Shown: positions 19,506 through 38,831 of the stretch, one piece after another
Position numbering within the stretch: position 1 is the first letter of the stretch
Layout of the letters: each line of letters starts with the position of its first letter
Assembly (NCBI RefSeq): GCF_015693305.1
Contig: NZ_CP065138.1
Span: 2,730,001 to 2,794,000, forward strand
Source of the DNA: Sphingobium sp. Cam5-1
Lineage (GTDB): Bacteria; Pseudomonadota; Alphaproteobacteria; Sphingomonadales; Sphingomonadaceae
DNA length: 64,000 bases
Direction: 5' to 3'
The notes under the pieces: model-generated
The model's database searches: none
What the model was told of the DNA's origin: nothing
The model's input: the letters and a program-made list of their open reading frames with translations, nothing else
Position numbers and translations under genes: made by a program

Positions 19506-19580
19506 GGCCCCTTCGTCTAGCGGTTAGGACGCGGCCCTTTCACGGCTGAAACACGGGTTCGATTCCCGTAGGGGTCACCA
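19506..19580 (+). tRNA. tRNA-Glu (anticodon UUC)
   Basis: The 75-nt cloverleaf has acceptor arm GGCCCCT / AGGGGTC with one G-U pair, anticodon loop CTTTCAC (anticodon TTC), T-arm GGGTTCGATTCCC and encoded CCA. Its last 17 bases form the island attachment core. Confidence 0.97.
19564..19580 (+). other. attL of the genomic island (core in tRNA-Glu 3' end)
   Basis: The 17-base core TCCCGTAGGGGTCACCA is repeated exactly, in the same orientation, at 38815-38831. The flanking bases differ on both sides (T/C before, C/T after). Integration therefore left the tRNA gene intact at the left end. Confidence 0.9.
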
Positions 19581-19602
19581 CCCAGCATTTGCTGGGTTTT
19601 TT
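19581..19602 (+). terminator. Rho-independent terminator after tRNA-Glu
   Basis: Stem CCCAGCA / TGCTGGG with a TT loop is followed by six T residues, immediately after the CCA of the tRNA. It belongs to the island side of attL. Confidence 0.85.
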
Positions 19603-19619
19603 CATCTCCGCCGAGATCA

Positions 19620-19653
19620 GTTCCCCCAGCAGGTGGGGGAAATGTTCCCCCAC
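19620..19653. repeat. Cluster of three GGGGGAA half-sites near attL
   Basis: Three copies of the C5/G5 motif (TTCCCCC or its complement) lie within 35 bp. Two of them form a perfect 9-bp-arm palindrome, GTGGGGGAA-ATG-TTCCCCCAC (19633-19653). Position 40-70 bp inside the att core fits arm-type integrase binding sites; that role is inferred. Confidence 0.45.
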
Positions 19654-19773
19654 TTCATCAGTCCATGGCTCTTGGTGAATTCTTAAGGGCGATGATGGAG
19701 AGTGTCCGCCTTTCGGGATTGCGCTTTCGTTGCAGATGTGGTCCTGCTCACGACGGAGAGCCTGCGAGATCAA

Positions 19774-20607
19774 ATGTCACTCGAATTTACGCCTATAGCC
19801 GACCAGCACGCCATCGAAGCGTGCGCGATGGTCGTCCGCTTGTTTCAGCCGCTCGATCCAGAAAGCATGGATCGCTTGCGCGAGGAACTGTTCGCAATCG
19901 CGTCTGCTGCTGATCTTCCTTCGAAGCATGCAATGACGGGGGCAACGTTTTTCTTCGGGCCGCAGGGGGTAGCTGCGCCCCCTCCGCCGGTGACGGGGGG
20001 CTGGTTATTTCAGCGTTTCGCGCCAGACGGAAAGGTCCAGGCGGAGCTGCGATGCGAAGCTCAGGCAATAACGCTCACTGTTCGTGAATATGATCGGTGG
20101 GCAGACCTCATGGCCTTTGCCGAGAGGACTCTTTTCCCGGCGTTGCAGCTTTATATGCAAACATTCCCTGTGCTCGCAGCGGTATTGTTGCAGTACGAGG
20201 ATAAGTTCTGGGCCGCTGACAATGATGTGAGCACAAACGCTCTGTTCCGTGACGATACCCAGTGGGTAAATATTTCTCACAAAGGATCGAAAGATCCTTG
20301 GCATTCGCATTTCGGAATGTTTGTCGCGCGCGATCGGCCAAACAATCGCGAGCTCGTTAATGTAAACGTGAATGTTTTGGATATGGTCATCCCGTCAGAG
20401 CAGGTGGAGCGCCGCGCCGCAGCGATCACTGTGCTTGTAGGGGACATGTATGACATCCCTCAGCAGGAGCCGCTGACGTTCTCGTCACCTGAGGAAGGCG
20501 TAGAATATGCCCGTCGCTCGCTTTCGATATCGCACGAGCGCCAGCGGAAAATCTTGAATAATGTGCTCCAGGATGACTATCTTCGTGCAATTGGTGCCCT
20601 GGACTGA
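19774..20607 (+). CDS. TIGR04255-like protein, first gene of an unknown three-gene cassette
   Basis: The 277-residue product looks like the sporadically distributed TIGR04255 family. It opens MSLEFTPIADQHAIEA and carries a central segment GGWLFQRFAPDGKVQAEL (near residue 80) followed by ITLTVREYDRW. No function is established for the family that I know of, and no catalytic motif or membrane segment is visible. I chose ATG 19774 because the family begins at this FxPIxxxHAI motif; a GTG at 19702 would add 24 residues. The gene is more AT-rich than the surrounding core genes. It is followed after 2 bases by a second unknown gene, so the two are surely co-transcribed. Confidence 0.7.
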   Translation: MSLEFTPIADQHAIEACAMVVRLFQPLDPESMDRLREELFAIASAADLPSKHAMTGATFFFGPQGVAAPPPPVTGGWLFQRFAPDGKVQAELRCEAQAITLTVREYDRWADLMAFAERTLFPALQLYMQTFPVLAAVLLQYEDKFWAADNDVSTNALFRDDTQWVNISHKGSKDPWHSHFGMFVARDRPNNRELVNVNVNVLDMVIPSEQVERRAAAITVLVGDMYDIPQQEPLTFSSPEEGVEYARRSLSISHERQRKILNNVLQDDYLRAIGALD

Positions 20608-20609
20608 TT

Positions 20610-21161
20610 ATGAAAACGACTGACCAGATTATCGATCAGCAACCGCCTGCTTCACAAGCGATCATTTCGGCCGCTTTGCGTCAAGCGCTCCAGCAAAGTT
20701 TTTCCTCGACCTGTTCTTCTATATCGGAGTTGCAGGGTGCGCGGATCTCTTTTGCGCTAGCGGACCGGAGCCACATTGAGGCTGAATCTCCGCACGAGGC
20801 AGATCGCCAAATTCGGCGCCTGGTCAATTTCAAAAGTCGTAAGAAGGGCTGGGACGGACGCGAAGCTGAGGCTCCGAACCCAGAATCTCTAGGCGCGGCG
20901 ATCCATTTCTTACAGAGCCTCAAATATCTACCGTTCCCGATCCCGATGGCCAGCGTGGGTAGTGATGGCAACGCCACCCTCTATTGGAAGAACGACAAGG
21001 TCTACGCCGACGTCGAGCTGTATGAGGACGGGAGGATCGGCTATCTTTTGCAGGTCGGGGACCGAGATCCGGAGGACAATGAAGTCGATATGCCCGAGCG
21101 GGGTATTCCGCCGAGCATCTTTGGCGCCCTGATCGCGGCCAATCCTTTCAAAAACCGGTAG
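20610..21161 (+). CDS. Unknown protein with GWDG motif, second gene of the cassette
   Basis: The 183-residue product is not assigned to a named family. A helical N-terminal half is followed by KKGWDGREAEAPNPESLGAA (near residue 75-95), then a strand-rich part with DGNATLYWKNDKVYADVELYEDG. This layout (GWDG...A.P...A..FL followed by DG.I.LxW) is one I recall from unassigned proteins encoded next to TIGR04255 genes in mobile regions. It has no signal peptide or membrane segment, so it is probably cytoplasmic. The start lies 2 bases after the previous stop. Confidence 0.7.
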   Translation: MKTTDQIIDQQPPASQAIISAALRQALQQSFSSTCSSISELQGARISFALADRSHIEAESPHEADRQIRRLVNFKSRKKGWDGREAEAPNPESLGAAIHFLQSLKYLPFPIPMASVGSDGNATLYWKNDKVYADVELYEDGRIGYLLQVGDRDPEDNEVDMPERGIPPSIFGALIAANPFKNR

Positions 21162-21170
21162 TACGTTCAT

Positions 21171-21749
21171 ATGCAGGACGCTTGCCGTGCGGTCTTTGGC
21201 TCGGGGGCCACAGGTAAGGACCTTCAAGATGCAATTCATGCCTCATTCCCGGAAGGTGAGTGCGAGGAGTGTTCCATTAGCGAACACTCCCATGGTCCTG
21301 TGGCGGATGACGAGATCCTTACGAAACTGATCGTCGACCCCATCCACATCGACAAAGGCGTGGTCAGTCCGGCGGCTTTTACGGATGCGTACAGTTTGGA
21401 TTTGTCCTTGTTTCGCGAAGAGCTTGCGACCGATAAAGAGATCCAGCTTGCCATCGATCAGATCAAGAATACGGGCTGGGGTAAGGAGTCGCCGCAGTCG
21501 CGGTCCATCGTCGCGGTGATGCACGCGTCAGCAGAGTCCATAAGGGCACTGCGCCTCGATAATCCTTCCGGGCCGATGTGCAGGATCTATGATACCGGAG
21601 AGGCGGATAAGCCTGCTCATGCGTCGGTGTTTACACCCACCCGCGCTAGGACGAACAAGAGCGATCAGCGGGCGATACGCCGCGCGCTTCTAAATGCATT
21701 TGGAACTGCGAAAGCAATGCCCAACTATCGGCCGGGCCTCAAACCCTAG
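21171..21749 (+). CDS. Unknown protein, third gene of the cassette
   Basis: The 192-residue product has no recognised domain name. Notable parts are CEECSIS near residue 27, DDEILTKLIVDPIHIDKGVVSPAAF near residues 45-70, LSLFREELATD, and a C-terminal PAHASVFTP. The segment order (DxExLxRxVxxPxHI...G.V.P.AF...LSxxR...PAHA) is one I recall from other unassigned proteins of mobile regions. The gene follows its neighbour by 9 bases and ends the cassette. It is predicted to be soluble. Confidence 0.65.
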   Translation: MQDACRAVFGSGATGKDLQDAIHASFPEGECEECSISEHSHGPVADDEILTKLIVDPIHIDKGVVSPAAFTDAYSLDLSLFREELATDKEIQLAIDQIKNTGWGKESPQSRSIVAVMHASAESIRALRLDNPSGPMCRIYDTGEADKPAHASVFTPTRARTNKSDQRAIRRALLNAFGTAKAMPNYRPGLKP

Positions 21750-21801
21750 CAACGGTTGTGATTAACGTCCCATCTTCAACGGCGTGACGCTGCTCATCTT
21801 T

Positions 21802-22216
21802 TCAGATGCGCCGACGGCGATCATGTACGCGCGCGCGCTTGCCGTAGTGGCGGACGGTCTCTGGCGTCATGCCCAGGATGGCGCCAACGTCTGTGTCGCT
21901 GAGGCCCGTTTCCAGCAGGTAGCAGCAGGCGTTCTTGCGCAGGCCGTGGAAGGTGTAGAGCAGCTGGTTCTCGTCATCGACATGGCCGAGGTCATGCATC
22001 AGGCGACGAATGCGCTCCTGAATCCGATCCTCGCCGGAGAAGGGGCGGCCTGACCGATCGTAGAGCAGGGCGACGGCCTTCTTCTCGACCTTGCCGATTT
22101 CCTCGCGCCACCAGGGATGGACGGGCACCGCCACGTCGACATCGGTCTTCCTGCTTGAACTCTTCGCTATGCTTCATCATCTCGTCGGTCTCCTTGATCG
22201 AGCTCCAAACTCTCAA
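21802..22216 (-). pseudogene. Tyrosine recombinase (phage-type integrase) remnant, frameshifted and 5'-truncated
   Basis: The frame from 22134 to 21802 encodes the C-terminal end of a catalytic domain: FHGLRKNACCYLLE (box II H-x-x-R) and MTPETVRHYGKRAR with the nucleophile Tyr. Just upstream, homologous-looking sequence (KETDEMMKHSEEFKQ) continues in another frame and meets KTDVDVAVPVHPWW near 22147, pointing to a one-base frameshift. The N-terminal DNA-binding domain and first catalytic Arg are absent. It was probably the integrase of this tRNA-Glu island or of an earlier insertion, and is inactive now. Confidence 0.75.
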
Positions 22217-22328
22217 GTGACCGCCACAAAACTGTTACAAGTCCACGAGTTCCGATCTAGCCTGATGATCGCCAGGCTTTGGGACACGACAATCTGAGGG
22301 GTAAGCGCGCTGGAATGCACGTCGCTCA

Positions 22329-22886
22329 CTATCTTGCCGAACTTCCGCCCTCAGAGATTCCCTCCATCAGCAACTGGACTGCGCGGGACAAGACGCTATC
22401 TCTCTCTTCGGCAGGCAGATCCACCGCGACCGCCTGAAGCATCTGGGCAATCCGACCGATATCGTCGACCGAAAGATCGTCGCGAACGATGCCTGCATCC
22501 TGCGCCCGCTCGAGAGGCAGGGCCATGAGTTGCCGAGCGCGGATTTCGAACTCTTGCCATTCCTGCTTTAGCGACGGATCTCTCTCCAGACCTCGCAGTC
22601 CGGAGGCATGTATGGCCGACAGCAGCCCGATGCGGACCAAGAAGAAACGGAAGGCGTCGTGATCGTCAGTGATGAGTGCGGCCTGAGCGATCAACGCGTC
22701 GAGCCGACTGCGTACGACCTCAAGCACCAGCATAGAGCGGTCCCGGAAGTTACGATAAAGCGTACCGCGCCCTATACCGGCGTTTTCCGCGATTGCCTCC
22801 AAGGGCACATCATAGCCCTGCTGCTCGAACATGTCGGCGGCGACGGCAATCAGCTTGGCTCGTCTCTCCTGTGCGTCTTTCCTCAT
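22329..22886 (-). CDS. TetR/AcrR-family repressor of the adjacent efflux operon
   Basis: The 185-residue product has an N-terminal TetR helix-turn-helix (AIAENAGIGRGTLYRNFRDR near residues 31-51) and a variable ligand-binding C-terminal domain. It is divergent from the RND efflux operon. The 158-bp gap contains a near-perfect palindrome (22915-22938) that is its probable operator, so it likely represses both itself and the pump until an inducer binds. The inducer cannot be read from sequence. Confidence 0.88.
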   Translation of the reverse strand: MRKDAQERRAKLIAVAADMFEQQGYDVPLEAIAENAGIGRGTLYRNFRDRSMLVLEVVRSRLDALIAQAALITDDHDAFRFFLVRIGLLSAIHASGLRGLERDPSLKQEWQEFEIRARQLMALPLERAQDAGIVRDDLSVDDIGRIAQMLQAVAVDLPAEERDSVLSRAVQLLMEGISEGGSSAR

Positions 22887-22914
22887 GCTTGACGGGCCTC
22901 ATGCTTTCCCATAA

Positions 22915-22938
22915 TAACCGGACATCAATGTCCGGTTA
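22915..22938. promoter_or_regulatory. Palindromic operator between tetR and the efflux operon
   Basis: Left arm TAACCGGACATC and right arm AATGTCCGGTTA match at 11 of 12 positions. Size and location between divergent tetR and pump genes fit a TetR dimer site. Confidence 0.75.
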
Positions 22939-23044
22939 CACCCTTTTGCGCCGCCACGGAAGAATGGCTTCGCACGGGATCTCTGGAGAGGAATGCCCGC
23001 CAGGTCCAGAGCAACCATGGCCTAACCTGCCGAGGAGTTTCCCC

Positions 23045-24205
23045 ATGCCGACCTTCCCGATCCTCCTGCGCCGCCGAGCATGCGGCGGCGTGGCCACGCT
23101 GTTCCTTCTCGCGTCCTGCGGGCATCAGGAGGAGCAGGCGGCACCCGCTCCTGTGGTTGACGTGGTGGCGGTCACGACGGGCGATGTTCCCAACATCACC
23201 GAACTGCCCGGTCGGATTGAGGCGGTGCGAACGGCCGAGGTGCGCGCCCGGGTCGACGGCATCGTGGAGCGCCGACTTTATCAGGAAGGATCGGACGTAC
23301 CCGCAGGAGCGCCGCTGTTTCAGATCGATCCGCGCGACAAGGAGGCGCAGCTCGCGCAAGCGCAGGCCGCGCTTAATCGGGCGACGGCCGCACGCGCCAA
23401 TGCCCGCGCTATCGTCGCTCGCTACGAACCGCTCGTGAGCCGCAAGGCGGTCAGCGCGCAGGAATATGATGCAGCGCTTTCAGATGCGCGGCAAGCCGAC
23501 GCCAGCGTCAGCGATGCGCGCGCCGCGCTGGACCGGGCGCGCCTCGAGCTGGGATACACCAGGGTGCGAGCGCCGATCGCAGGCCGGGTGGGCAAGGCGC
23601 AGGTGACCGAAGGCGCTCTGGTAAGCGCTTCATCCGCGACCTTGCTGACGCAGGTGAACCAGCTGTCGCCGATATACGCGACCTTCACCCAGTCCAGTTC
23701 CAAATTGCTCGATGTGCAGCAGCTTGCCAAGGCTGGCGCGCTTCGCCTCCCTGACCTGGGCGCTATTGAGGTACGCCTCGTACTGGAGAACGGCACGCAA
23801 TATGGCCTGCCTGGACATCTCGATTTCGCGGATCAGACCGTCGATCCCTCCACGGGCAGCCAGACGCTGCGCGCCCGCTTTCCCAATCCGGATCGGCTGC
23901 TGTTGCCCGGTCAATTCGTGCGTGCGCGCATCATCGCCGGATCGCGCCGCGACGGCATCGCAATCCCCGAGCGAGCCGTTCAGATCAGTAATGAGGAAGC
24001 ATCGGTTCTGATCGTCGGACGCGACAATCTCGTTGCCAAGCGTACGATCGAACTGGGTGGGCGGAGCGGCGGCAAGTGGGTGGTTCTGTCGGGTCTCAGA
24101 AGCGGCGACATGATCATCGTCGACGGCTGGATGAAGGTGCAGCCTGGCCAAAAGGTCACGCCGCGCAAAGCGGGCGCGACCCGCGCCGCTCTCGGCAAGC
24201 GCTGA
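23045..24205 (+). CDS. RND efflux periplasmic adaptor lipoprotein (MexA/AcrA type)
   Basis: The 386-residue adaptor links the inner-membrane pump to the outer-membrane channel. It has a lipoprotein signal with lipobox LLASC near residue 24, a biotinyl-lipoyl half motif (EVRARVDGIVERRLYQEGSDV near residue 65), a long alpha hairpin rich in Ala/Gln, and the second lipoyl half YTRVRAPIAGRVGKAQVTEG near residue 175. ATG 23045 follows a clear GAGGAG site; upstream in-frame starts would lack a signal peptide. It is the first gene of a three-gene operon with the pump 16 bp downstream. Confidence 0.92.
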   Translation: MPTFPILLRRRACGGVATLFLLASCGHQEEQAAPAPVVDVVAVTTGDVPNITELPGRIEAVRTAEVRARVDGIVERRLYQEGSDVPAGAPLFQIDPRDKEAQLAQAQAALNRATAARANARAIVARYEPLVSRKAVSAQEYDAALSDARQADASVSDARAALDRARLELGYTRVRAPIAGRVGKAQVTEGALVSASSATLLTQVNQLSPIYATFTQSSSKLLDVQQLAKAGALRLPDLGAIEVRLVLENGTQYGLPGHLDFADQTVDPSTGSQTLRARFPNPDRLLLPGQFVRARIIAGSRRDGIAIPERAVQISNEEASVLIVGRDNLVAKRTIELGGRSGGKWVVLSGLRSGDMIIVDGWMKVQPGQKVTPRKAGATRAALGKR

Positions 24206-24221: not shown

Positions 24222-27200
24222 ATGAAACGCTTCTTCGTCTATCATCCGGTCTTTGCCTGGGTTGTCGCAATCTTCGTCGCCCTTTTCGGCATTATCGGCC
24301 TGCGGCTTCTGCCGGTCGAGCAATATCCTCAGGTCGCGCCGCCCGCGCTCAATCTCCAGATCACCTACAACGGCGCCGACGCAGCCACGCTCGACCGGAC
24401 GGTGACATCGATCATCGAGAAGGAGATGAACGGCGTTGAAAACTTCCTCTACATGTCCTCAACGAGCCGGTCGAACGGCACGGCGCAGGTTACCGTTACG
24501 TTCAAGCCCGGGACCGATCTGGACGTCGCCCGGACGCAGGTGCAGGATCGTCTGAGCCGCGTCGAACCACGCCTGCCGACCGAGGTCAGGCAGCTCGGCA
24601 TCAGCGTGACCAAGTCCAGTTCCGGCTTCCTGATGCTCGTCGCCTTCCAAGCCGAGGATGGCGCGATGAGCGCGCTCGATATGGGCAACTTCGCCTCGAG
24701 CAAGATCATGGATGAATTGCGCCGTGTACCTGGCGTTGGCGATGTGCAGTTGTTCGGTTCCCCCTATGCGATGCGCGTCTGGCTCGACGAAGAGAAGCTT
24801 GCTGGCTACGGTATTTCGGCGGCCGACGCCCTTGCAGCCGTTCAAGAGCAGAATAGCCAGACCGCCGGGGGAGGGCTTGGTGAACAGCCTCTTGCAGGGG
24901 GGGCCGAAATCAACGCCAAGATCATCACTCAGAACCGCTTTTCGACCCCCGAACAATTTCGCCAGATCATCGTCAGGTCCAATCCGGACGGTTCGACGAT
25001 CCGGCTCGGGGATGTCGCGCGCGTCGAGTTAGGCAAGGACAATTACGGCTTCCGCCTGACGCTTAACGGCAGGGAAACGGCGGGCATGGCAATTCAGCTG
25101 GCTAGTGGCGCAAACGCGTTGGGCACGGCAGAGGCCATAAAGGCCCGCTTGACCGAGTTGGAGAAGATTTTCCCGCCGGGTTTGAGCTGGACTGTTCCTT
25201 ACGACACCACGCCCTTCATCACCGCCTCAGTCGACAGCGTCATTCACACTCTGGTAGAAGCGATGGTGCTGGTTTTCCTCGTGATGTTCCTGTTTTTGCA
25301 GAACTGGCGCGCCACGCTGATCCCGGCGTTGGTGGTGCCGGTCGCGCTTGCTGGGTCTTGCCTTGGCCTCTACCTGTTCGGCTATTCGATCAATGTGCTT
25401 TCGCTGTTCGCCATGGTTGTGGCGATCGGCATCCTTGTCGACGACGCCATCGTGGTGGTCGAGAATGTCGAGCGCATCATGCGCGAAGAAGGGCTCAATC
25501 CCCGGCGCGCCACGGTAAAGGCGATGGGCCAGATCACCGGCGCGATCGTCGGCATCACGCTGGTGCTGGTTGCGGTGTTCATCCCCATGGCCTTCTTTCC
25601 CGGCTCCACCGGCGGCATCTATCGCCAGTTCTCAGTGACACTCGCGATTTCAATTCTCTTCTCGGCCCTGCTGGCCCTGACCTTGACACCGGCGCTTTGC
25701 GCTACCCTGCTCAAGGCAGAGCATGGCGATGACAGCAGCCGGTCGCACACTCCCCAAGCGGGCCTTGCGGGGTGGGCGCACCGCTTCTTCGCATGGTTCA
25801 ATGATCGGTTTGGCCGGATCACTGATCGCTACACTGCAGGCGTCGGCACGATGATACGCGCACCGGGGCGCTGGCTGGCGGTCTTCGCCGTGATGTGCGC
25901 CGTTACGGTCGTGGCGTTCACGCGCCTGCCGGGCGGCTTTTTGCCGACGGAGGATCAGGGCTATATCTTTGCCAGCTACACCGCTCCGCCGGGCGCGACG
26001 ATTCAGCGCACACAGGAGGCGGTGGAGCGGGCGGAAGCGTTCCTCAGAAAGCAGCCGCAGGTGCGCAACGTGGTCTCGATCGTCGGGTTCAGCTTCTTTG
26101 GCCAGGGCCAGTCGGCTGCGCTCTCTTTCGTCGATCTCAAGCCGTGGGATGAACGCAAGGGCGCCGATGAAAGTGCGAGCACGCTCGTGCAGCGGGCCAA
26201 TGCCGCCTTTTCGACCATAACCGGCGCCATGGTTTTCGCCCTCGACCCACCGCCAATCCAGGCGCTGGGCAATGCGACAGGCTTCACCATGAAGCTGGAG
26301 GATCGCAGCGGCGAAGGCGGCATGGCGCTTCAGCAAGCCGCGCAGCAGATCCTCGCACAAGCCGGCAAGAGCAAGGTCTTCGCGATGGTCCGGCAGGAAG
26401 GGCTGCCGCCATCGCCGCAGCTCCATGTCGACATCGACCGCATCAAGGCGCGCAGCCTCGGGCTTCGCATAGCCGACGTTAACCAGACGCTCGGCGTTGC
26501 CTTCGGCTCGGCTTATGCAAACGACTTCGTTCATGACGGCAATGTCTTGCGCGTCTATCTCCAGGCCGATGCCGGGCAGCGGATGCGCGCGGAGGATGTG
26601 TCGGCCTTGCGGGTTCGCAATGATCAGGGTCTGATGGTGCCCTTTTCTGCCTTCACACGGGTCAAATGGACGGCAGGTCCGCAGCAGCTCGAACGCTATA
26701 ATGGCTATCCGTCGATCACTCTGTCGGGCCAGGCGGCGCCGGGGCAATCCAGCGGCGCGGCCCTTGTGGAGATGGAGCGCATCGCCGACAAGGTGCTGAA
26801 CGGCAACCTGTCCTACGAATGGACCGGGACTGCCTATGAAGAGAAGCAGGCAGGCGGCCAGATCGGTCTTTTGCTCGGTCTTTCCGTGGTCGTCGTGTTC
26901 CTGCTGCTCGCGGCGCTTTACGAAAGCTGGCCGATCCCGGTGGCGGTGCTGCTGGTGGTGCCCTTCGGCGTGCTGGGTGCAGTCATCTTCACGATGCTGC
27001 GTGGGCTTTCGGCTGACGTCTACTTCAACGTAGGCCTGATTACCATCATCGGCCTGGCCGCCAAGAACGCGATCCTGATCGTCGAGTTTGCTGTCGAACA
27101 GGAGACCGAAGGCGTCGCCCCGCTCGAGGCAACGATCAACGCGGCGCGCCTGCGTCTGCGACCGATCCTGATGACCAGCCTCGCCTTCATCCTGGGCATG

Positions 27201-27428
27201 GTGCCCCTCGTCATCGCCAGCGGTGCCGGGGCGGCAAGCCGTCAGGCGGTCGGCACCGGCGTCGCCGGCGGCATGATCACCGCGACGCTGTTCGGCATCT
27301 TCTTCACGCCGGTCTTCTACATCGCGATGCGACTATGGCTTGTACGCAAGCGCGACCATGAGGCAGCCGATGCGCAGGAGGAGGCGCGAGAAAGAGCCGG
27401 TCACGACGGGGAGACCGCCCATGCGTAA
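24222..27428 (+). CDS. RND multidrug efflux pump, inner-membrane transporter (HAE1, MexB/AcrB type)
   Basis: The 1068-residue protein is a proton-driven trimeric exporter. It has the standard layout of 12 membrane helices and two large periplasmic loops. The N-terminal helix begins MKRFFVYHPVFAWV, the proton-relay Asp pair lies in GILVDDAIVVVENVER near residue 405, and the relay Lys in GLAAKNAILIVEFA near residue 950. Length and motifs place it in the hydrophobic/amphiphilic efflux family rather than the metal (CusA) family. The C-terminus is highly charged and overlaps the start of the channel gene by 8 bases. Confidence 0.95.
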   Translation: MKRFFVYHPVFAWVVAIFVALFGIIGLRLLPVEQYPQVAPPALNLQITYNGADAATLDRTVTSIIEKEMNGVENFLYMSSTSRSNGTAQVTVTFKPGTDLDVARTQVQDRLSRVEPRLPTEVRQLGISVTKSSSGFLMLVAFQAEDGAMSALDMGNFASSKIMDELRRVPGVGDVQLFGSPYAMRVWLDEEKLAGYGISAADALAAVQEQNSQTAGGGLGEQPLAGGAEINAKIITQNRFSTPEQFRQIIVRSNPDGSTIRLGDVARVELGKDNYGFRLTLNGRETAGMAIQLASGANALGTAEAIKARLTELEKIFPPGLSWTVPYDTTPFITASVDSVIHTLVEAMVLVFLVMFLFLQNWRATLIPALVVPVALAGSCLGLYLFGYSINVLSLFAMVVAIGILVDDAIVVVENVERIMREEGLNPRRATVKAMGQITGAIVGITLVLVAVFIPMAFFPGSTGGIYRQFSVTLAISILFSALLALTLTPALCATLLKAEHGDDSSRSHTPQAGLAGWAHRFFAWFNDRFGRITDRYTAGVGTMIRAPGRWLAVFAVMCAVTVVAFTRLPGGFLPTEDQGYIFASYTAPPGATIQRTQEAVERAEAFLRKQPQVRNVVSIVGFSFFGQGQSAALSFVDLKPWDERKGADESASTLVQRANAAFSTITGAMVFALDPPPIQALGNATGFTMKLEDRSGEGGMALQQAAQQILAQAGKSKVFAMVRQEGLPPSPQLHVDIDRIKARSLGLRIADVNQTLGVAFGSAYANDFVHDGNVLRVYLQADAGQRMRAEDVSALRVRNDQGLMVPFSAFTRVKWTAGPQQLERYNGYPSITLSGQAAPGQSSGAALVEMERIADKVLNGNLSYEWTGTAYEEKQAGGQIGLLLGLSVVVVFLLLAALYESWPIPVAVLLVVPFGVLGAVIFTMLRGLSADVYFNVGLITIIGLAAKNAILIVEFAVEQETEGVAPLEATINAARLRLRPILMTSLAFILGMVPLVIASGAGAASRQAVGTGVAGGMITATLFGIFFTPVFYIAMRLWLVRKRDHEAADAQEEARERAGHDGETAHA

Positions 27429-30013: not shown

Positions 30014-30098
30014 GTGATGTCTCCTTGGGGACAGCATCAGGCTGTCGTTGGAGACCTTTTACAGCTTGCGATAACTTCTATGCAGATAGATAAAACCG

Positions 30099-30113
30099 GC
30101 CGATTTATTCGAG
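30099..30113. promoter_or_regulatory. Putative LysR box between pirin and lysR
   Basis: On the minus strand it reads CTCGAATAAATCGGC, 11 of 15 matches to the perfect palindrome TTCGATTAAATCGAA found upstream of the isochorismatase gene. It lies in the divergent control region, 86 bp before the pirin start. Confidence 0.5.
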
Positions 30114-30124
30114 AAAGTGGAACG

Positions 30125-31054: not shown

Positions 31055-31658
31055 TCCTGCCAAAGATCGACCGGGCCGGGGCATGCGGTCGGGGCGGCTG
31101 GAGGCCTTCACCGATGGGGTTGTCGCGATCATCATCACGATCATGGTGCTCGAATTGAAGGTGCCGGAGGAAGGGACGTTCGAAGCGCTGTCGGACAGCC
31201 TGCCGATCCTGCTCGCCTATGTCCTGTCCTTCATCAATGTCGGACTGTACTGGAACAATCACCACCATCTGATGCAGGCGACCGGGCGGATCGACGGACG
31301 TGTGTTGTGGGCGAACCTGTTCTTGCTGTTCTGGCTGTCGCTCGTCCCCTTCGTCATCCGATGGCTGGATGCGAGCGGCTTCTCGCCGATGGCCACGGCG
31401 TCCTATGGCGTCGTGCTGGGCATGGCGGCGATCGGCTATGAACTGACGGAGCGGTTCATCATCGCCTGCAACGGCCGTCAGTCGGCCGTGGCCAAGGCGA
31501 TTGGTCGTGACTGGAAGGGCAAGATCAGCCTTGCCATCTATGCCGTCGCCGTACCGGCTGCCTTCTTCGCGCGGCCGGTGGCGATCATTCTGTACATCGT
31601 CGTTTTGCTGTTCTGGCTCGCGCCCGATCGCAGGATCGAGCGCGCGCTGAAAGACTAA
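31047..31658 (+). CDS. TMEM175-like membrane protein (DUF1211)
   Basis: The 203-residue product matches the TMEM175/DUF1211 family, prokaryotic members of which form potassium-permeable channels. The signature RLEAFTDGVVAIIITIMVLELK (first helix, near residue 17) contains the FxDxV filter-helix pattern. Six hydrophobic segments are visible overall, with GLYWNNHHHLM after the second or third. It overlaps the lysR stop by 8 bases (ATGTCTGA) and converges on a DUF1275 gene with a 4-base overlap. Confidence 0.85.
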   Translation: MSDPAKDRPGRGMRSGRLEAFTDGVVAIIITIMVLELKVPEEGTFEALSDSLPILLAYVLSFINVGLYWNNHHHLMQATGRIDGRVLWANLFLLFWLSLVPFVIRWLDASGFSPMATASYGVVLGMAAIGYELTERFIIACNGRQSAVAKAIGRDWKGKISLAIYAVAVPAAFFARPVAIILYIVVLLFWLAPDRRIERALKD

Positions 31659-32350
31659 AGCGGCTTGGATGCGACGGGGTGAAGGGTGCAGGCCAGGGTG
31701 CCTGCGAAGATCAGCCCGCCGGCCAGGATGAGGGGCACGACCAGCCCGCCATGGGTGACGAGATATGCGCCGATGGCTGCACCAAGGAAAATGGCGGCAA
31801 CGCTGCCGATGCGCCGCGCCCAATTGGGGTTTGCGCCGCCGGCGAGGCTGGAATCGGCGGCAAGTCCGGCGATGGTGAGCGTCAGGACGGTCGTAGTGAG
31901 GTCGGTCACCTTGAGCTGTCGGATGGTCGCGTTGCGAAAGCCCATGGCGAGGCCTGTAAGCGCAATAATCATATAGACGCTGAAACCCGGCGTCTGCGTC
32001 GCGATGTCGAACCCCACGGCCACGCCAGCCGCGATCCAGAGGAGGACTGCCTCGACCGACGCGGCGATGATCAGCCAGCGCCCAAGAGGTGAGCCTGCAT
32101 GCCGCTTGCCAACCTGTCCGGCAATCAACGCGCCGACCATGAACGATGCGATGGCGACGATATAGGGTGCGATCTTGAAGCCCGGCGCGCCGCTGGCGGC
32201 GAAGCCGAGAAAGACGACATTACCGGTCATGTTCGCCGTGAAGACTTTTCCGAGACCGAGCACCGAGGTGGCGTCAACAAGGCCTGTCGTCACGGAGAGG
32301 AGCAGTAGGAGCCAGGCAAGCGGCGATGCGGCGGGTTTGTCGGTGGTCAT
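31655..32350 (-). CDS. DUF1275 (YoaK-like) membrane protein
   Basis: The 231-residue product has about six membrane segments. It carries the family signature TTGLVDATSVLGLGKVFTANMTGNVVFLG near residues 22-50 and GFRNATIRQLKVTDLTTTVLT near residue 140. No transport substrate is established for this family. ATG 32350 has GGAGA six bases upstream. A LysR-type box lies about 80 bp before the start. Confidence 0.85.
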   Translation of the reverse strand: MTTDKPAASPLAWLLLLLSVTTGLVDATSVLGLGKVFTANMTGNVVFLGFAASGAPGFKIAPYIVAIASFMVGALIAGQVGKRHAGSPLGRWLIIAASVEAVLLWIAAGVAVGFDIATQTPGFSVYMIIALTGLAMGFRNATIRQLKVTDLTTTVLTLTIAGLAADSSLAGGANPNWARRIGSVAAIFLGAAIGAYLVTHGGLVVPLILAGGLIFAGTLACTLHPVASKPL

Positions 32351-32430
32351 GACGGTCTCCGTGGGTGCGATGGCCATTTCTTTAATCGCCACCATTCCAT
32401 CGATGCAGCCGAATAATATCGATAGTTTCA

Positions 32431-32445
32431 TTCGATTAACCGGAA
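32431..32445. promoter_or_regulatory. Putative LysR box upstream of the DUF1275 gene
   Basis: TTCGATTAACCGGAA matches the perfect palindrome TTCGATTAAATCGAA at 12 of 15 positions. It is 81 bp before the DUF1275 start codon. Confidence 0.5.
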
Positions 32446-32452: not shown

Positions 32453-33814
32453 TCAGAAGCGAAAGTTGCTTTCCACTCCCAGCATGGCGACCGTCTTTGC
32501 TGGACCAGTCTCATGAATGAAGGCGCCCGGGGCGAAAGCGGACAACGATGCAGACAATTCCCACTCAGGCGTCGCTTGCCAGTCGATGGTCGCTTCGGCT
32601 TCCTTGCCGATGAAGCGCGCATGGCTGTCGCCCGCTCCGCGTATCAGGGTGCCGGGTATGTTGTAGACACCGTCTGCGATGCTGTAGCGCCAATAGGCCA
32701 TGGCTGCGAGACCGAAGGAGACGCCATCGCCGAGTGAACCGCTGACGCGGGGATTGACGCTGATGATGTTGGTCGGACCGACCGGCGAGAGTTCGCCGAA
32801 ATATTTGCCCTTGGGGAAAAGGGCGTTGAAAGTGCCGATCTTGCCGTCACCCGCTTTACCGTCACCGCTGACGATGTTGACGCGCAGCGTCGCGTCCGGA
32901 GCAAGGGGGAGAGCGGGAAAGCTTCGGCCGACTTCCGTGCCGAGTGTCCAGGCGGCGATCCTCTGCCCCTCGAAATGACCGAATTGCGCCACACCCTCGA
33001 CATTCCAGTGCCAGTCGCCACGGACGCCGTGCGATCGCAGCCCAAGGCTGTGTCGAACCTCGCGCCCCTTCACTTCATCGAAACGGGCGAGCCGGTTGCG
33101 ATAGCCGAGATAATAGATGTCCAGTTCCGGCAGCGCAACATAGGCGCCCCACAGCGCCTTGTCGCCCGACCTTGCGTCATCGAAGCTGTCTGGCCCGGGC
33201 TGAACGGGCCGTGCCGCGATCAGGCTGAGCTTGGGTGTTCCAATCGCAACATCGACCCTCGCGCCATCGAAGGCCAGCGGGACATTGGGACCGTAGCGCG
33301 TGCCGATCAGCCGCTCCGTGCCGAGCGAGAGCATCTGGCGGCCGAAGCGCACGGTGACAGGGCCGAGATCGACCTCGCCAAATCCCTGAAGCAGATCGGC
33401 CCGCGTCTGGTCGATGGGACTGGCGGAGGGTGAGACGCCGACCGCATAGGCCAGGATCGGCTGTACGAACGCCCGTGCCTTGCCAACGTGGAGATCGGCA
33501 TAGGGGAGCGCGCGCAGCCACAGATAGCTGTCACCGGGTGCGTCCGCTCCGCCCCACAGATTGTTTCGATAACTCTCGCTCCGCGCGCGCAGTTCGATGC
33601 CGGTCGACAGCCAGTTGTCGTCGCCGAGCGGGATGTACTTGAGTGGACCGGTCCAGTGCTCTGCGCGTTTCTTCGCATCGGCAAGGTCGGACCAGTCCTC
33701 GTCATAGCGCGTGATGCTGAGCGTGGGTGCCTCCCACGCTTCCTTGTGCTGGGCGCTGGCCGGTGCCGCGAGACCCCCGGCCAGCAACCCGGCCGCGATG
33801 AGGATCCTAAGCAT
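32453..33814 (-). CDS. Alginate-export-family outer-membrane beta-barrel protein
   Basis: The 453-residue product has a signal peptide (MLRILIAAGLLAGGLAAPASAQ) and a body of alternating amphipathic strands ending in NFRF, as in outer-membrane barrels. The pattern FGRQMLSLGTERLIGTRYGPNVPLAFDG near residue 155 is typical of the Alginate_exp (AlgE-like) family, many members of which are uptake or export porins unrelated to alginate. It probably lets the substrate or product of the neighbouring enzymes cross the outer membrane (inference). ATG 33814 overlaps the doxX stop by 8 bases. Confidence 0.82.
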   Translation of the reverse strand: MLRILIAAGLLAGGLAAPASAQHKEAWEAPTLSITRYDEDWSDLADAKKRAEHWTGPLKYIPLGDDNWLSTGIELRARSESYRNNLWGGADAPGDSYLWLRALPYADLHVGKARAFVQPILAYAVGVSPSASPIDQTRADLLQGFGEVDLGPVTVRFGRQMLSLGTERLIGTRYGPNVPLAFDGARVDVAIGTPKLSLIAARPVQPGPDSFDDARSGDKALWGAYVALPELDIYYLGYRNRLARFDEVKGREVRHSLGLRSHGVRGDWHWNVEGVAQFGHFEGQRIAAWTLGTEVGRSFPALPLAPDATLRVNIVSGDGKAGDGKIGTFNALFPKGKYFGELSPVGPTNIISVNPRVSGSLGDGVSFGLAAMAYWRYSIADGVYNIPGTLIRGAGDSHARFIGKEAEATIDWQATPEWELSASLSAFAPGAFIHETGPAKTVAMLGVESNFRF

Positions 33815-34298
33815 GGGGCCGCCACCCCCGGGCGACGAGTGCAACGAGCACGAAGCCGCCGATCAGGCCGATATGTTCGAAAAAGGCATTGGTCGCCATG
33901 AAGCGCTCCTGCCCCGTCGGCATCGCCCAGAAGGCGTTCGCGGTAAACGCGGCGAGCAGGGTGAACACCCCCAGCATGCCCGCGCCCAGCCAGACCAGTC
34001 GGCCGCTGAGGATCAGCATCGGTCCGACAAGTTCTATGCCGATGGTGAGTGCCGCCCAGAAGGCGCGCGGCGTCATGCCAAAATGCGCCTGCTCCGCGAC
34101 GGCTGAGGGCCAGTCGGTGAGCTTGACGATGCCGCCCAGCAGGTAAGCACCTACCAGTGCGAGGCGGGCCAGGAACCATGTGGGACGCCAGTCGAGGATC
34201 ACGGTGACGAAGCGGGGTGCGTTGGTGGTTCGAGCGGGCGCAGCGATGGGATTGGTGGCGACCGGAGCGGTCGCCCTCCTTTGAACGGTGCGGTTCAT
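33807..34298 (-). CDS. DoxX-family membrane protein
   Basis: The 163-residue product has a hydrophilic 35-residue N-terminus and four membrane segments with the DoxX pattern (LARLALVGAYLLGGIVKLTDW near residue 44, then MLILSGRLVWLGAGMLGVFTLLAAF near residue 95). DoxX proteins are membrane partners in redox or stress functions; the role here is unknown. It starts a short operon with the porin gene. Two LysR-type boxes lie 50 and 82 bp upstream. Confidence 0.8.
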   Translation of the reverse strand: MNRTVQRRATAPVATNPIAAPARTTNAPRFVTVILDWRPTWFLARLALVGAYLLGGIVKLTDWPSAVAEQAHFGMTPRAFWAALTIGIELVGPMLILSGRLVWLGAGMLGVFTLLAAFTANAFWAMPTGQERFMATNAFFEHIGLIGGFVLVALVARGWRPHA

Positions 34299-34347: not shown

Positions 34348-34394
34348 TCCGAACGATCCGAATAAAATAGGAGGTGTTGTTCGATATTATGGAA
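34348..34394. promoter_or_regulatory. Two putative LysR boxes upstream of doxX
   Basis: TTCGATATTATGGAA at 34380-34394 matches the reference palindrome TTCGATTAAATCGAA at 11 of 15 positions. A weaker copy (9 of 15) lies on the minus strand at 34348-34362. The pair fits a LysR recognition/activation site arrangement in the 138-bp gap. Confidence 0.45.
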
Positions 34395-34436
34395 TGTGGA
34401 AACAGCGGTCCTCGTGGGAAAGGAGCGCTGCCCCTA

Positions 34437-36365
34437 TCAGACGGCCCAGCAGCCACATCCCATGACGCCCCAGAAGCTCTGGACGTCGGCGGTCGGCATA
34501 CTGCCGCCGAGCGCTGCGGCATGATCGTGGCCATGAACGTTACAGGCGGAGGCGCATCCGCAGGCCGAAGCCAGCTTCTTTGCCGCTTCATCTCGCCGCC
34601 AGTGGCCGCCGAAGGTCGCGACCGGGGACCAGTCTGGCATCGCTTTTGGCGCTTCGGGGGCGAGCGGGCCGAAACTGCCTTCACCGTAGACGATCTTCCC
34701 GCCCAGCACGGTCAGGACCGAGTGCAGATGCGCAATCTCGCTCTCCGGCACGCTGAAATAATCGTCCGAAAGCAGCGCTAGATCGGCCAGTTGTCCAACC
34801 TTGATCTGTCCCTTTTTGCCGACCTCGTTGGAGAACCAGCTGTTCTTCTCGGTCCACAGCCGGAGCGCAGTCTCACGATCGAGCCGGTTACGGGTGGGAT
34901 AAAGCGTCAGCCCGCCCACCGTCTTTGACGTCACGAGCCAGCTGAGCGACACCCAGGGATTGTAGCTGGCGACGCGGGTGGCATCGGTGCCCGCGCCCAC
35001 AGGTACGCCTGCATCCATCATACGTTTGATCGGCGGCGTTGTCTCCGCGGCCTTTGCGCCATAACGCTCGACGAAATATTCGCCCTGAAAGGCCATGCGA
35101 TGCTGAACCGCGATCCCGCCGCCCAGTGCGGCGATCCGGTCGATATTGCGTTCGCTGATCGTTTCGGCATGGTCGAAGAACCAGTTGAGCCCCTTGAGCG
35201 GGATATCGCGGTTCACCTTCTCGAAAACGTCCAGCGCGCGGGAGATGGTCTGATCATAAGTTGCATGGAGACGCCAGGGCCAGCGGCGCTCGGCGAGCAA
35301 GCGGATGACGGGTTCGAGATCGCCTTCCATCTCCGGCGGCATATCGGGGCGGGCGACACGAAAATCTTCGAAGTCCGCTGCCGAATAGACCAGCATCTCC
35401 CCGGCGCCATTGTGGCGATAGCTGTCGTCGCCATCGCCCGGCTTGATCTGCGTTGACCAGCTGGCGAAATCCTTCAGCTCTTCTTTCGGCTTCTGCGTAA
35501 ACAGATTGTAGGCGATGCGCAGTGTCAGCTCGCCGTCCTTGTGCAGCTTGTCGATGACTTCATAGTCGTCGGGGTAATTCTGCGACCCGCCGCCTGCGTC
35601 GATCACACTGGTAACGCCCAGCGAATTCAGCTCCCGCATGAAATGTTTGGTGGAGTTGAGCTGATAATCCTGCGGCAGCTTCGGACCCTTTGCCAGCGTC
35701 GCATAGAGGATGGTCGCGTTGGGCTGGGCCAGCAGCAGGCCTGTGGGGTTGCCCGCCGCATCGCGAACGATCTCGCCTCCCGGCGGATTGGGCGTATCCT
35801 TTGTGTATCCGACGGCGCGCAGCGCAGCGGCGTTGAGGAGCGCACGGTCATAAAGGTGGAGGATGAAGACAGGCGTATCTGGCGCGGCGGCATTTATCTC
35901 CGCCAGTGTCGGCAGGCGCTTCTCGGTAAACTGATGCTCGGTGAAACCGCCGACCACGCGGACCCATTGCGGCGGCGGCGTGTTTTCGGCCTGCTTCTTC
36001 AGCATCGCCATGGCGTCGGCGAGCGTCGGCACGCCTTCCCAGCGCAGTTCCATATTATAGTTCAGGCCGCCGCGAATGACGTGAATATGGCTGTCGATGA
36101 GGCCCGGGATCAGGCGGCGGCCACCGGCGTCGATGACGCGGGCATCGGGCGCTGCGACTGCGCGCACTTCCTGCTCGGAGCCGACGGCGAGAAACTTGCC
36201 GTCGCGGATCGCCACCGCCTGCGCCTGCGGATTTTCGCGGTCGAGGGTGGTTATCTTTGCGTTGGTCAGGATCAGGTCGGTGTGGGTCATGGCGAAACTT
36301 TCGGAGGTGGCGAGAAGGGTGGTAGTGGCGGCAACGCTGCCAAGCAGCTGGCGGCGGTTCATCAT
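34437..36365 (-). CDS. Tat-exported YtcJ-like amidohydrolase with Cys/His-rich tail
   Basis: The 642-residue product belongs to the metal-dependent amidohydrolase superfamily (YtcJ branch). It has a twin-arginine signal (NRRQLLGS near residue 3), metal motif GLIDSHIH near residue 95, HATYDQ near residue 370, WFFDHAET near residue 397 and AGTDATRVASYNPW near residue 455. The substrate is unknown. The last 40 residues are unusual, carrying ACGCASAC, HGHDH and MGCGC, and look like a metal-binding appendage. The start codon overlaps the XapX stop as ATGA; a second Met follows directly. Confidence 0.85.
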   Translation of the reverse strand: MMNRRQLLGSVAATTTLLATSESFAMTHTDLILTNAKITTLDRENPQAQAVAIRDGKFLAVGSEQEVRAVAAPDARVIDAGGRRLIPGLIDSHIHVIRGGLNYNMELRWEGVPTLADAMAMLKKQAENTPPPQWVRVVGGFTEHQFTEKRLPTLAEINAAAPDTPVFILHLYDRALLNAAALRAVGYTKDTPNPPGGEIVRDAAGNPTGLLLAQPNATILYATLAKGPKLPQDYQLNSTKHFMRELNSLGVTSVIDAGGGSQNYPDDYEVIDKLHKDGELTLRIAYNLFTQKPKEELKDFASWSTQIKPGDGDDSYRHNGAGEMLVYSAADFEDFRVARPDMPPEMEGDLEPVIRLLAERRWPWRLHATYDQTISRALDVFEKVNRDIPLKGLNWFFDHAETISERNIDRIAALGGGIAVQHRMAFQGEYFVERYGAKAAETTPPIKRMMDAGVPVGAGTDATRVASYNPWVSLSWLVTSKTVGGLTLYPTRNRLDRETALRLWTEKNSWFSNEVGKKGQIKVGQLADLALLSDDYFSVPESEIAHLHSVLTVLGGKIVYGEGSFGPLAPEAPKAMPDWSPVATFGGHWRRDEAAKKLASACGCASACNVHGHDHAAALGGSMPTADVQSFWGVMGCGCWAV

Positions 36366-36610
36366 CCGTCGCGCTTTTCGTTGGTCGGCAGCTTGCCAAG
36401 AACGTGGTTCATGCAATCCTGGCGCACAAAACGCGACAGTTCCGGCAGGCTGCTCAGGCGTTGCGCGACCGGGATGATCTGCTCACCGAGCAGGATCCCC
36501 GCCAGTCCGACCAGAGCGATCACCGGCGGTGCGGGAGAGCGAACGCCCATCAGGCTGTAAATGATACCGACGATGAGGCCGGCGCCGAGGGAAAGAATAT
36601 AGGCTTTCAT
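36362..36610 (-). CDS. XapX-domain small membrane protein
   Basis: The 82-residue product starts MKAYILSLGAGLIVGIIYSLMGVRSPAPP, the XapX signature, with two hydrophobic segments (residues 3-20 and 30-45) and a hydrophilic tail. Function is unknown; these genes commonly accompany hydrolase/amidohydrolase clusters. It overlaps the amidohydrolase start by four bases. An upstream ATG at 36637 would add nine residues and is less likely. Confidence 0.8.
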   Translation of the reverse strand: MKAYILSLGAGLIVGIIYSLMGVRSPAPPVIALVGLAGILLGEQIIPVAQRLSSLPELSRFVRQDCMNHVLGKLPTNEKRDG

Positions 36611-36633
36611 CTCCGTTTTCCCGCTCCTGGTTA

Positions 36634-37488
36634 TCAAGCCTGAATGAAGGCCAGAATGTCGGCGTTCAAGACGTCGGCGTTGACCGTCAGCATGCCATGC
36701 GAGAAATTCTCATAAATCTTCAGCGCAGCGTCCGGCAGCAGTTCGGCCTGTAGCACGCCCGCATTCTTGTACGGCACGACCTGGTCGTCATCGCCGTGCA
36801 GCACCAGCGTTGGCACGGTGATTGCTTTGAGGTCGTCGGTCTGGTCGGTTTCGGAAAAGGCCTTTATGCCTTCATAATGGGCGAGCGCGCTGCCCATCAT
36901 GCCCTGCCGCCACCAAGTGTCGATGACGGCGGGCTTCACTTCCGCGCCCTCACGGTTGAAGCCATAGAAAGGCCCGGCGGCGACATCCTGGAAGAATTGC
37001 GAGCGGTTGGCGGCGAGGCTGGCGCGCAGGCCGTCAAATACATCCATGGGAAGGCCGCCGGGATAGCGATCCGTCTTCAGCATGATCGGCGGCACCGCGC
37101 TCACCAGCACGGCCTTGGCGACACGCCCTTGCGGGATGCCGAAGCGAGCGACATAGGCCGCCACTTCGCCGCCGCCGGTGGAATGGCCGATGTGGATAGC
37201 GTTACGCAGATCCAGATGCTTGGCGACTGCGGCCGCATCGGCGGCATAATGATCCATGTCATGCCCGAAATCGACCTGAGCCGAGCGACCGTGTCCACGG
37301 CGATCATGGGCTACGACGCGATAGCCCTTCGACAGGAAGAACAGCATCTGCGCGTCCCAGTCGTCGGACGAAAGCGGCCAGCCGTGATGGAACATGATGG
37401 GCTGGGCGTCCTTGCTGCCCCAGTCCTTGTAGAAGATCTGTGTGCCGTCGGCGGTAGTGACGGAGCTGGAAATGGCGGGGCTGGTCAT
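36634..37488 (-). CDS. Alpha/beta hydrolase, non-haem chloroperoxidase type
   Basis: The 284-residue product has the full catalytic triad of the chloroperoxidase/esterase group: nucleophile Ser in GHSTGGGE near residue 102, acid in VLHGDDDQVVP near residue 230, and His in NFSHGM near residue 262, plus the oxyanion segment FHHGWPLS near residue 33. Such enzymes are esterases with side perhydrolase activity; no signal peptide is seen, so it is cytoplasmic. It sits between the isochorismatase-like gene (79 bp gap) and the XapX gene (23 bp). Confidence 0.88.
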   Translation of the reverse strand: MTSPAISSSVTTADGTQIFYKDWGSKDAQPIMFHHGWPLSSDDWDAQMLFFLSKGYRVVAHDRRGHGRSAQVDFGHDMDHYAADAAAVAKHLDLRNAIHIGHSTGGGEVAAYVARFGIPQGRVAKAVLVSAVPPIMLKTDRYPGGLPMDVFDGLRASLAANRSQFFQDVAAGPFYGFNREGAEVKPAVIDTWWRQGMMGSALAHYEGIKAFSETDQTDDLKAITVPTLVLHGDDDQVVPYKNAGVLQAELLPDAALKIYENFSHGMLTVNADVLNADILAFIQA

Positions 37489-37567
37489 GGCGGGTTCCTC
37501 GAACTGAGAAGGGGAAGGGTCGGCGACCGGTGGGGGAAGGAGGCCCGGCCGCCGGATATGCTAGAGC

Positions 37568-38227
37568 TTAGTGCGCGCCTTCGGATGCATTGAACATGGT
37601 CTTGGCGTAGGTGATTCCCAGGCCATAGGCGCCGCCCCACTTCTTCGCGAAGCCGGTCGTCATGTCGTAGGTCTCGGTCCGGGCCCAGTCGCGCTGCAGT
37701 TCGAGAAGATACTGGAGCGAGGTCATCGGCTTGGCGCCCAGCTGGGTCATGCGCTCAACAGCGCGTTCATGGGCTTCTTCCGAAATGTCGCCGCAGGCAT
37801 CGGTGATGACATAGACGTCGAAGCCTTGATCGATGGCCGAGGCGACTGGCCCGACGATGCAGACGCTCGTCCACAGGCCGGCGAAAACAAGGCGCTCCTT
37901 GCCGATGCGGTTCACCTCGTCGATAACGGCGGCATCTTCCCAGGTATTCATCGACGTGCGGTCGAGCAGGGGCTGGCCGGGGAAGGCGTCGGTGATCTCG
38001 CTGAACATCGGGCCGGAGAAGCTGTCGGCGGCGACGGTGGTCAGAATGGTCGATACCTTGAAACCGGCGGCGGCATTGGCGACCAACGCGGCATTGTTGC
38101 GTAGCAGTTCGGTGGAGATCGACTTGGTGGCGAAGGCCATCTGCGACTGGAAGTCGATCATGACCAGGGTATGATCGTTGGCCGCGATGAGGGATTTGCC
38201 GGGGGTCGGGGTGGCTTTAATGGTCAT
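37568..38227 (-). CDS. Isochorismatase-family cysteine hydrolase (YcaC-like)
   Basis: The 219-residue product shows the family triad: Asp in LVMIDFQSQM near residue 24 and nucleophile Cys in GLWTSVCIVGP near residue 120, with the general base region between them. YcaC-like members have unknown physiological substrates. It is the first gene of the minus-strand island operon (then hydrolase, XapX, amidohydrolase). The strongest LysR palindrome of the island lies about 100 bp before its start. Confidence 0.85.
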   Translation of the reverse strand: MTIKATPTPGKSLIAANDHTLVMIDFQSQMAFATKSISTELLRNNAALVANAAAGFKVSTILTTVAADSFSGPMFSEITDAFPGQPLLDRTSMNTWEDAAVIDEVNRIGKERLVFAGLWTSVCIVGPVASAIDQGFDVYVITDACGDISEEAHERAVERMTQLGAKPMTSLQYLLELQRDWARTETYDMTTGFAKKWGGAYGLGITYAKTMFNASEGAH

Positions 38228-38328
38228 ATCGGTCTCCAGTCTGAAATTCGGACACTCGGTTAGTTCCGGTGTGATTGGAGCCCTAGCGGGATATTTTTCT
38301 CCCGCGCAGTCAGATAAAATTTGGCCCT

Positions 38329-38349
38329 TCGTTCGATTAAATCGAACGA
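38329..38349. promoter_or_regulatory. Perfect palindrome, probable LysR operator upstream of the isochorismatase operon
   Basis: The two 10-base arms around a single A are exactly complementary; the core is TTCGATTAAATCGAA, which contains T-N11-A. It lies 102 bp before the start codon and is the best match to similar sites at 30099, 32431 and 34380. Confidence 0.7.
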
Positions 38350-38814
38350 TGATCCGGTGCAGTCATCTTCGGGACTGAGTTCTAATCGGTGACTCTGTAG
38401 GTTGCCGCGCTGGCGCTTAATTTGTCATGAGGTCGGCAGCGCGAGGTGAGTAAGCTCACAAAGGCTCGGGCCTCTTCCCGACCTAAACGGCTGGCTGCGG
38501 CGTTAGCGGACGTTCCAACTCGCAGCTGCTGAAAGGCGTGAGCTGGTCGATACCTGCCTGCTCGGATGCCAGTCGGACCAGCGCCGGGTCCGCCAACAAA
38601 GGCGACGTTCAGAGAGGATCCTCGCGCGCTGAAAACCGCCATCTGTTCATGTGGAAGCAGAGGACGGCTTACTATGCCTGGCCCGCCCGGTAGAGCAACG
38701 GCCGCTTGCATGGGAAACATTGTGGTCCATTTAGCTCGTCCGTAAGATCTTCAAAGGGCTCATTGACGACCCCCGTAACATGCGATGAAATAAAGAATAT
38801 CTTCAAATCCCCTC
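38350..38814. other. Right end of the island without recognisable gene
   Basis: No convincing start, ribosome site or family similarity in any frame. A 112-codon minus-strand frame (38382-38720) looks like chance. The sequence becomes AT-richer just before attR (38760-38810). Confidence 0.5.
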
Positions 38815-38831
38815 TCCCGTAGGGGTCACCA
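38815..38831 (+). other. attR of the genomic island
   Basis: Exact direct copy of the last 17 bases of tRNA-Glu (TCCCGTAGGGGTCACCA), without the rest of a tRNA around it. Distance from attL is 19251 bp. Confidence 0.88.

Follow-up and report, generated by a model that had tools for sequence, protein, structure and literature searches.

The 64,000-nt stretch of Sphingobium sp. Cam5-1 DNA analysed here (hereafter the window; contig NZ_CP065138.1, positions 2,730,001 to 2,794,000 of the forward strand) contains a 19,251-bp unit that starts at the 3' end of a tRNA-Glu(TTC) gene. The unit is very probably a degraded genomic island of the integrase type, inserted at a site that serves as a hotspot for different elements in related species. 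We favour this reading because a relative has the empty allele, other relatives have differing cargo at the same tRNA, a direct repeat bounds the unit, and its broken integrase has no other match in the genome. Taken as an instance of a tRNA insertion hotspot, the island is well supported and ordinary; a three-gene cassette inside it, P1-P2-P3, matters more. The cassette joins TIGR04255, a named family with no assigned function, PDC-M32A, a listed defence candidate, and an orphan family in one recurrent operon, and this linkage opens a direct laboratory test for a whole class of sporadic operons.

The 17-mer TCCCGTAGGGGTCACCA occurs in exact copies at positions 19564-19580 and 38815-38831. ARAGORN predicts a single tRNA in the window, tRNA-Glu(TTC) at 19506-19580, with the left copy as its 3' end, and detects no tRNA around the right copy. 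The direct repeat of the tRNA 3' end is present at both borders, in agreement with the original observation that it closes the tRNA gene and recurs exactly with no tRNA around it. With up to 3 mismatches allowed, the 17-mer matches the window twice, compared with a mean of 0.12 matches in 100 shuffles, none of which reached two. The 4.37-Mb genome contains three copies at up to 1 mismatch. The only copy outside the window is the 3' end of tRNA-Glu(CTC); copies at many other positions, which were said to speak against an island, are not found. The window shuffles and the genome-wide count together rule out a chance repeat. The possibility that the right copy is a stray tRNA fragment was also rejected, because this copy abuts downstream sequence that is present in G003, a genome of the same genus.

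We searched 61 genus genomes, the window's own included and many of them drafts, for RecJ and the right-flank phosphatase. Both flanks had been described as core genes. This description holds for recJ, which has a match in all 61 genomes, but not fully for the phosphatase, which has a match in 46 of 61 at E <= 0.001, a strong one (E < 1e-100) in 23 of 61, and a position within 40 kb of recJ on one contig in only five (G000, G003, G010, G022 and G045; many of the others are drafts). The gap between recJ and the phosphatase is 284 bp in G003, 3,476 bp in G022, 6,874 bp in G045, 39,546 bp in G010, and 19,539 bp in the window. Subtraction of the 19,251-bp unit from the window gap leaves 288 bp, compared with the 284 bp of G003. 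Base-by-base alignment with G003, whose RecJ is 95% identical, reveals tRNA-Glu followed at once by the homologue of position 38832 onward, which is the empty-site allele that had been predicted for relatives.

The tRNA-Glu site is an insertion hotspot for different elements in related species, because relatives hold 3.5, 6.9, and 39.5 kb of differing DNA at the same tRNA; this differing cargo also supports the island reading put forward originally. The ~6.9 kb at the site in G045 (L006) contains, as read by eye, apparent genes for polysaccharide transport proteins (transporter) and for glycosyl or prenyl transferases, and has no match to the integrase of G010. The literature that we searched contains nothing that combines tRNA-Glu, genomic island, and Sphingobium.

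G010 has a complete 378-aa integrase just behind the tRNA and pointing toward it, and at its right border a 44-bp repeat of the tRNA end survives, with 97.7% identity. The window retains a broken C-terminal fragment of this integrase 2.2 kb from the tRNA, in which residues 242-358 and 354-378 lie in two frames. The left arm of the window island (19581-19653) and its integrase tail (21762-22150, 86%) both match G010, where the two adjoin; in the window they are separated by the three-gene cassette. The integrase fragment has no other match in its own genome (E <= 0.001), and no transfer gene is found among the 20 window open reading frames (ORFs) scanned. Judged by these sequences, the island is probably degraded and immobile today. 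Because the integrase is broken and has no other genomic match, neither excision nor an excised circle is expected today. The island shares with tRNA-integrated islands that have a tyrosine integrase the insertion at a tRNA 3' end, the tRNA-restoring repeat, an integrase that points at the tRNA, and variable cargo, but differs from them in its broken integrase, its right repeat cut to 17 bp, and the lack of a transfer gene among the 20 ORFs. A precedent is given in an excerpt of PMC3516476, according to which the Sphingobium plasmid pPDL2 recombines at an attB derived from the 3' end of a seryl-tRNA gene.

Between the repeats, the integrase remnant, unknown cassette, efflux system, and metabolic block that had been noticed were all identified (Table 1). 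The genes for the TetR regulator, the adaptor, the RND permease, and the outer-membrane channel make up what looks like a complete efflux operon. The right-hand, metabolic block comprises the pirin, LysR, DUF1275, alginate-export porin, amidohydrolase, alpha/beta hydrolase, and isochorismatase-type genes. A DNA search with 22150-38814, in which four candidates were scored per genome, gave matches in 59 of the 61 genus genomes, own included. Among the matches listed, pieces of the right-hand block reach up to 86% in many genus genomes at other positions, and the efflux operon reaches 68-69% in G013, G057, and partly G008. Both blocks also occur on sphingomonad plasmids. The top-ranked plasmid match, Sphingobium sp. 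V4, has 81% identity over 18% of the island; eight further plasmid records with 90-99% identity over shorter pieces lay outside the comparison. We read the island as a likely mosaic of independently moving modules.

The separate occurrence of the efflux and metabolic blocks elsewhere also fits a rival, somewhat doubtful explanation, namely that several unrelated insertions took place beside tRNA-Glu by homologous recombination or transposition, that the 17-bp repeat is the scar of one old event, and that a single 19-kb element never existed. The shortness of the right repeat and the cassette that parts the att arm from the integrase tail, adjacent in G010, point the same way. But one repeat copy coincides exactly with the tRNA end and the other with the point where the downstream sequence seen in G003 begins, and the window contains a remnant of the integrase type that G010 has at the same tRNA.

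For a degraded integrase-type island, the history would be as follows. An ancestral G010-like element would have entered by recombination at the 3' end of the tRNA, the right repeat would afterwards have decayed to 17 bp, and the integrase would have lost its N-terminal two thirds, while the three-gene cassette, the efflux operon, and the metabolic block, as modules that circulate among sphingomonads, would have built up inside. Two points count against the island. The right repeat is only 17 bp long, and the bases preceding it are unlike the tRNA. G022 and G045 each have a single 17-mer in the fetched sequence and so lack a right repeat.

The cassette (19774-21749) is GC-poor: the kilobases at 20-21 and 21-22 kb have 53% and 58% GC, whereas most others between 15 and 44 kb have 61-66%. 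P1, P2, and P3 have no Pfam family at E 0.01. P1 scores 18.1 bits (E 0.0019) against TIGR04255 of NCBIfam, under the curated cut-off of 30 bits, and by this score it is a distant relative of the family, not a member. Ten of the 12 P1 homologues match TIGR04255 at E up to 0.1 (best 1.7e-11), and the homologue in G417:C96 scores above the cut-off (35.4 bits). P2 resembles residues 260-350 of PDC-M32A, which belongs to the PADLOC phage-defence candidate PDC-M32, but the match is weak (E 2.3e-4 over 91 residues); among ten P2 proteins, one PDC-M32A model matches one at E 2.3e-4, and a second model matches one at E 0.054. An excerpt of PMC12429752 reports PDC-M32 in a Sinorhizobium prophage. As to a PDC-M32B partner, neither P1 nor P3 has a PADLOC match up to E 1. 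A PDB sequence search returned nothing credible. The predicted structure of P1 is good (88.8) and of the alpha/beta type; AdoMetDC, phosphagen kinases, a plasmid Rep protein, and TBP match it to a middling degree and point to no function. The model of P3 is too poor for use (mean predicted local distance difference test score 45).

P1-P2-P3 is a recurrent module, and apparently an undescribed one. In 298 family genomes, P1, P2, and P3, each searched singly, were found in the same two genomes, the window's own and G117, where the cassette has the same order as in the window and is 23-27% identical. A two-row P3 profile gave four hits in 337 class genomes, and the three new ones (G469, G417, and G457) all have a P1 homologue and a middle gene. 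P1 pattern searches gave five loci in a viral collection, one of which is the G117 locus, and five in named genomes. L043 duplicates L039, L045 holds the same genes as L040, and L041 ends at a contig end. In total, the order P1-P2-P3 is found at ten distinct loci (the window, L028, L035, L036, L037, L038, L039, L042, L044, and L046), with the middle genes of L035 and L038 taken as P2 by position (the former is missed by a two-sequence profile, the latter has E 0.25). The distances of the three genes correlate over the ten sets (Mantel r 0.42-0.52, p 0.004-0.006), also with L044 left out (r 0.40-0.54, p 0.004-0.014), as expected if the three genes travel together.

The neighbours of the cassette are often genes of phages or mobile elements. 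L028 adjoins a phage-type amidase and also appears in the viral collection, as a contig of 41.7 kb; the cassette of L035 has a neck/tail-completion protein, SSB, and dCMP deaminase around it, that of L038 has a terminase as a neighbour, and that of L039 is flanked by an endolysin and an integrase. Loci taken from the viral collection carry a bias from that source. L036 (G417) adjoins MzaC-, MzaD-, and MzaE-like proteins, a cytosine methyltransferase, and Vsr; the mzaABCDE system is termed validated in an excerpt of PMC9523054. L037 has a tRNA-Arg ~1.1 kb off. Ten P1 loci come from genome searches (the window, G117, G469, G417, G457, L042, L043, L044, L045, and L046), and six of them have phage, integrase, or defence neighbours.

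P1 relatives also have other surroundings. In L045 (positions 9986-11773; an Alcanivoracaceae metagenome-assembled genome) and L040, an integrase, a P1 relative, a 186-aa protein, and a HEPN-like protein (E 1.4e-6) stand in a row; this is an alternative partner set for P1. G417 has three separate TIGR04255 genes (L036, G417:C123, and G417:C28), of which the one in L036 heads P1-P2-P3 beside the Mza-like system. In L042 (Bradyrhizobium sp. Gha), the region 5' of the cassette (6908-9369) contains, as read by eye, an apparent Nif11-type leader and an apparent radical-SAM enzyme.

In the wider family, TIGR04255 scores above its cut-off at 20 places in 16 of 240 class genomes, and in 0 of 14 control genomes. 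Nineteen of these neighbourhoods were fetched; the twentieth place is L036. Canonical TIGR04255 members often head operons with a P2-like second gene, as in the cassette. Specifically, among the 685 ORFs of these neighbourhoods the P2 profile has 11 hits (up to E 0.03), each of which, judged by coordinates, comes directly after the TIGR04255 gene; 8 of the 19 neighbourhoods have no P2 hit. L083, one of the 11 loci, falls within the P1 subfamily (E 1.7e-39 against the P1 profile). Similarly, PDC-M32A is found in 3 of 142 genomes, at all three places directly downstream of a TIGR04255 gene.

Profile-profile comparison was made with 10 of the 19 neighbourhoods, picked by eye, with L073 and L085 left out despite their P2 hits and L076 included by position. 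P2 matches the second gene of the canonical operons at E 7e-9 or better, and P3 matches their third gene at E 2.9e-5 (7e-4 without L083, 0.035 in the strict set); the cross-comparisons give E 0.13-0.6. These profiles strongly suggest that P2 corresponds to the second gene of canonical operons. The match of P3 to the third gene is weak and only suggestive. In L071, L072, and L074, we read the genes behind the TIGR04255 gene as encoding an apparent helix-turn-helix protein and, apparently, one with a QTCDIVR motif; such operons would be a second type that recurs. Among 72,556 plasmid records, a canonical TIGR04255 protein (L086) matched one, which disfavours common plasmid carriage. The literature that we searched contains no paper on TIGR04255.

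Judged from its neighbours alone, the likeliest role of the cassette is phage defence, which we propose tentatively. It would provide anti-phage protection borne by phages and islands, with P1 for sensing or as a scaffold, P2 as a coupling protein, and P3 as the effector. With slightly more reserve, we propose that P1-P2-P3 could be an undescribed phage-defence or superinfection-exclusion system and TIGR04255 the centre of a large family of modular systems of this kind, in which a conserved sensor has interchangeable partners (P2 and P3; HEPN; helix-turn-helix and QTCDIVR proteins) and is spread by prophages, islands, and tRNA sites. Some results weigh against this role. Near L042, L044, and L046, three of the ten genome-search P1 loci, we recognised no phage gene, integrase, or known defence gene, and a stop codon interrupts P1 of L044. 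The cassette was not found in plasmid records (tblastn with P1, P2, and P3) or in phage records (P2 only), and the P1 homologue of L039 matches neither.

The genes are small, overlapping or abutting, and often in mobile contexts, and in L045 a P1 relative is accompanied by a HEPN-like protein, as would also be seen if P1-P2-P3 were a maintenance module of the toxin-antitoxin type that keeps mobile elements in the cell. This is unlikely, given that no toxin or antitoxin family matches P1-P3 of the window (Pfam, NCBIfam) or the ten P3 homologues (Pfam, credible level), and that PADLOC classes the P2-like domain as a phage-defence candidate. A role in phage or host nucleic-acid metabolism or regulation, outside any conflict, is improbable to a similar degree. 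The matches of the P1 model listed above are in keeping with it, as are several canonical TIGR04255 operons that lie, as read by eye, among apparently ordinary chromosomal genes, but the cassette is very sporadic (2 of 298 family genomes) and has been found among phage genes or next to a defence system, which speaks against such a role.

Table 1. Features of the island and its flanks in window coordinates.
Feature	Position	Strand	Remark
recJ, left flank	17638..19404	+	orthologue search; name recJ follows finding
tRNA-Glu (TTC), integration site	19506..19580	+	ARAGORN
Left 17-bp repeat copy (attL side), tRNA 3' end	19564..19580	+	
Terminator-like hairpin then T run, directly behind tRNA, in island arm	19580..19597	+	consensus scan
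Island left arm	19581..19653	.	common to islands of G010 (82% over 71 bp) and G022 (93% over 46 bp)
P1, distant TIGR04255 relative	19774..20607	+	invariant Y106, W109, D143, F145, H177, H179, G181, L194, H254 (12 homologues)
P2, WDG-type protein	20610..21161	+	weak PADLOC PDC-M32A match (E 2.3e-4)
P3, orphan family	21171..21749	+	invariant E32, E48, S79, R82, R125, H150 (10 homologues)
Integrase remnant, residues 242-378 of 378-aa G010 integrase, two frames	21765..22173	-	86-88% identical
TetR-family regulator	22329..22886	-	
Efflux periplasmic adaptor	22793..24205	+	longest ORF; family match from ~residue 96, true start probably later
RND efflux permease	24222..27428	+	
Efflux outer-membrane channel	27340..28824	+	longest ORF; true start probably later
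Pirin-family protein	29315..30037	-	
LysR regulator	29588..31054	+	longest ORF; helix-turn-helix from residue 188, so true start later
DUF1275 protein	31655..32431	-	
Alginate-export-type outer-membrane protein	32453..33844	-	
Amidohydrolase	34437..36416	-	
Alpha/beta hydrolase	36634..37488	-	
Isochorismatase-type (YcaC-like) hydrolase	37568..38227	-	
Right 17-bp repeat copy (attR side), remainder of old tRNA end	38815..38831	+	
Histidine phosphatase, right flank	38937..39704	+	

A consensus scan gave six terminator-like sites in 3.5 kb, compared with 2.8 expected. The island may bring its own terminator for the tRNA. The hairpin at 19580-19597 begins at the last base of the tRNA, and T-rich arms likewise lie behind the tRNA in G010 and G022.

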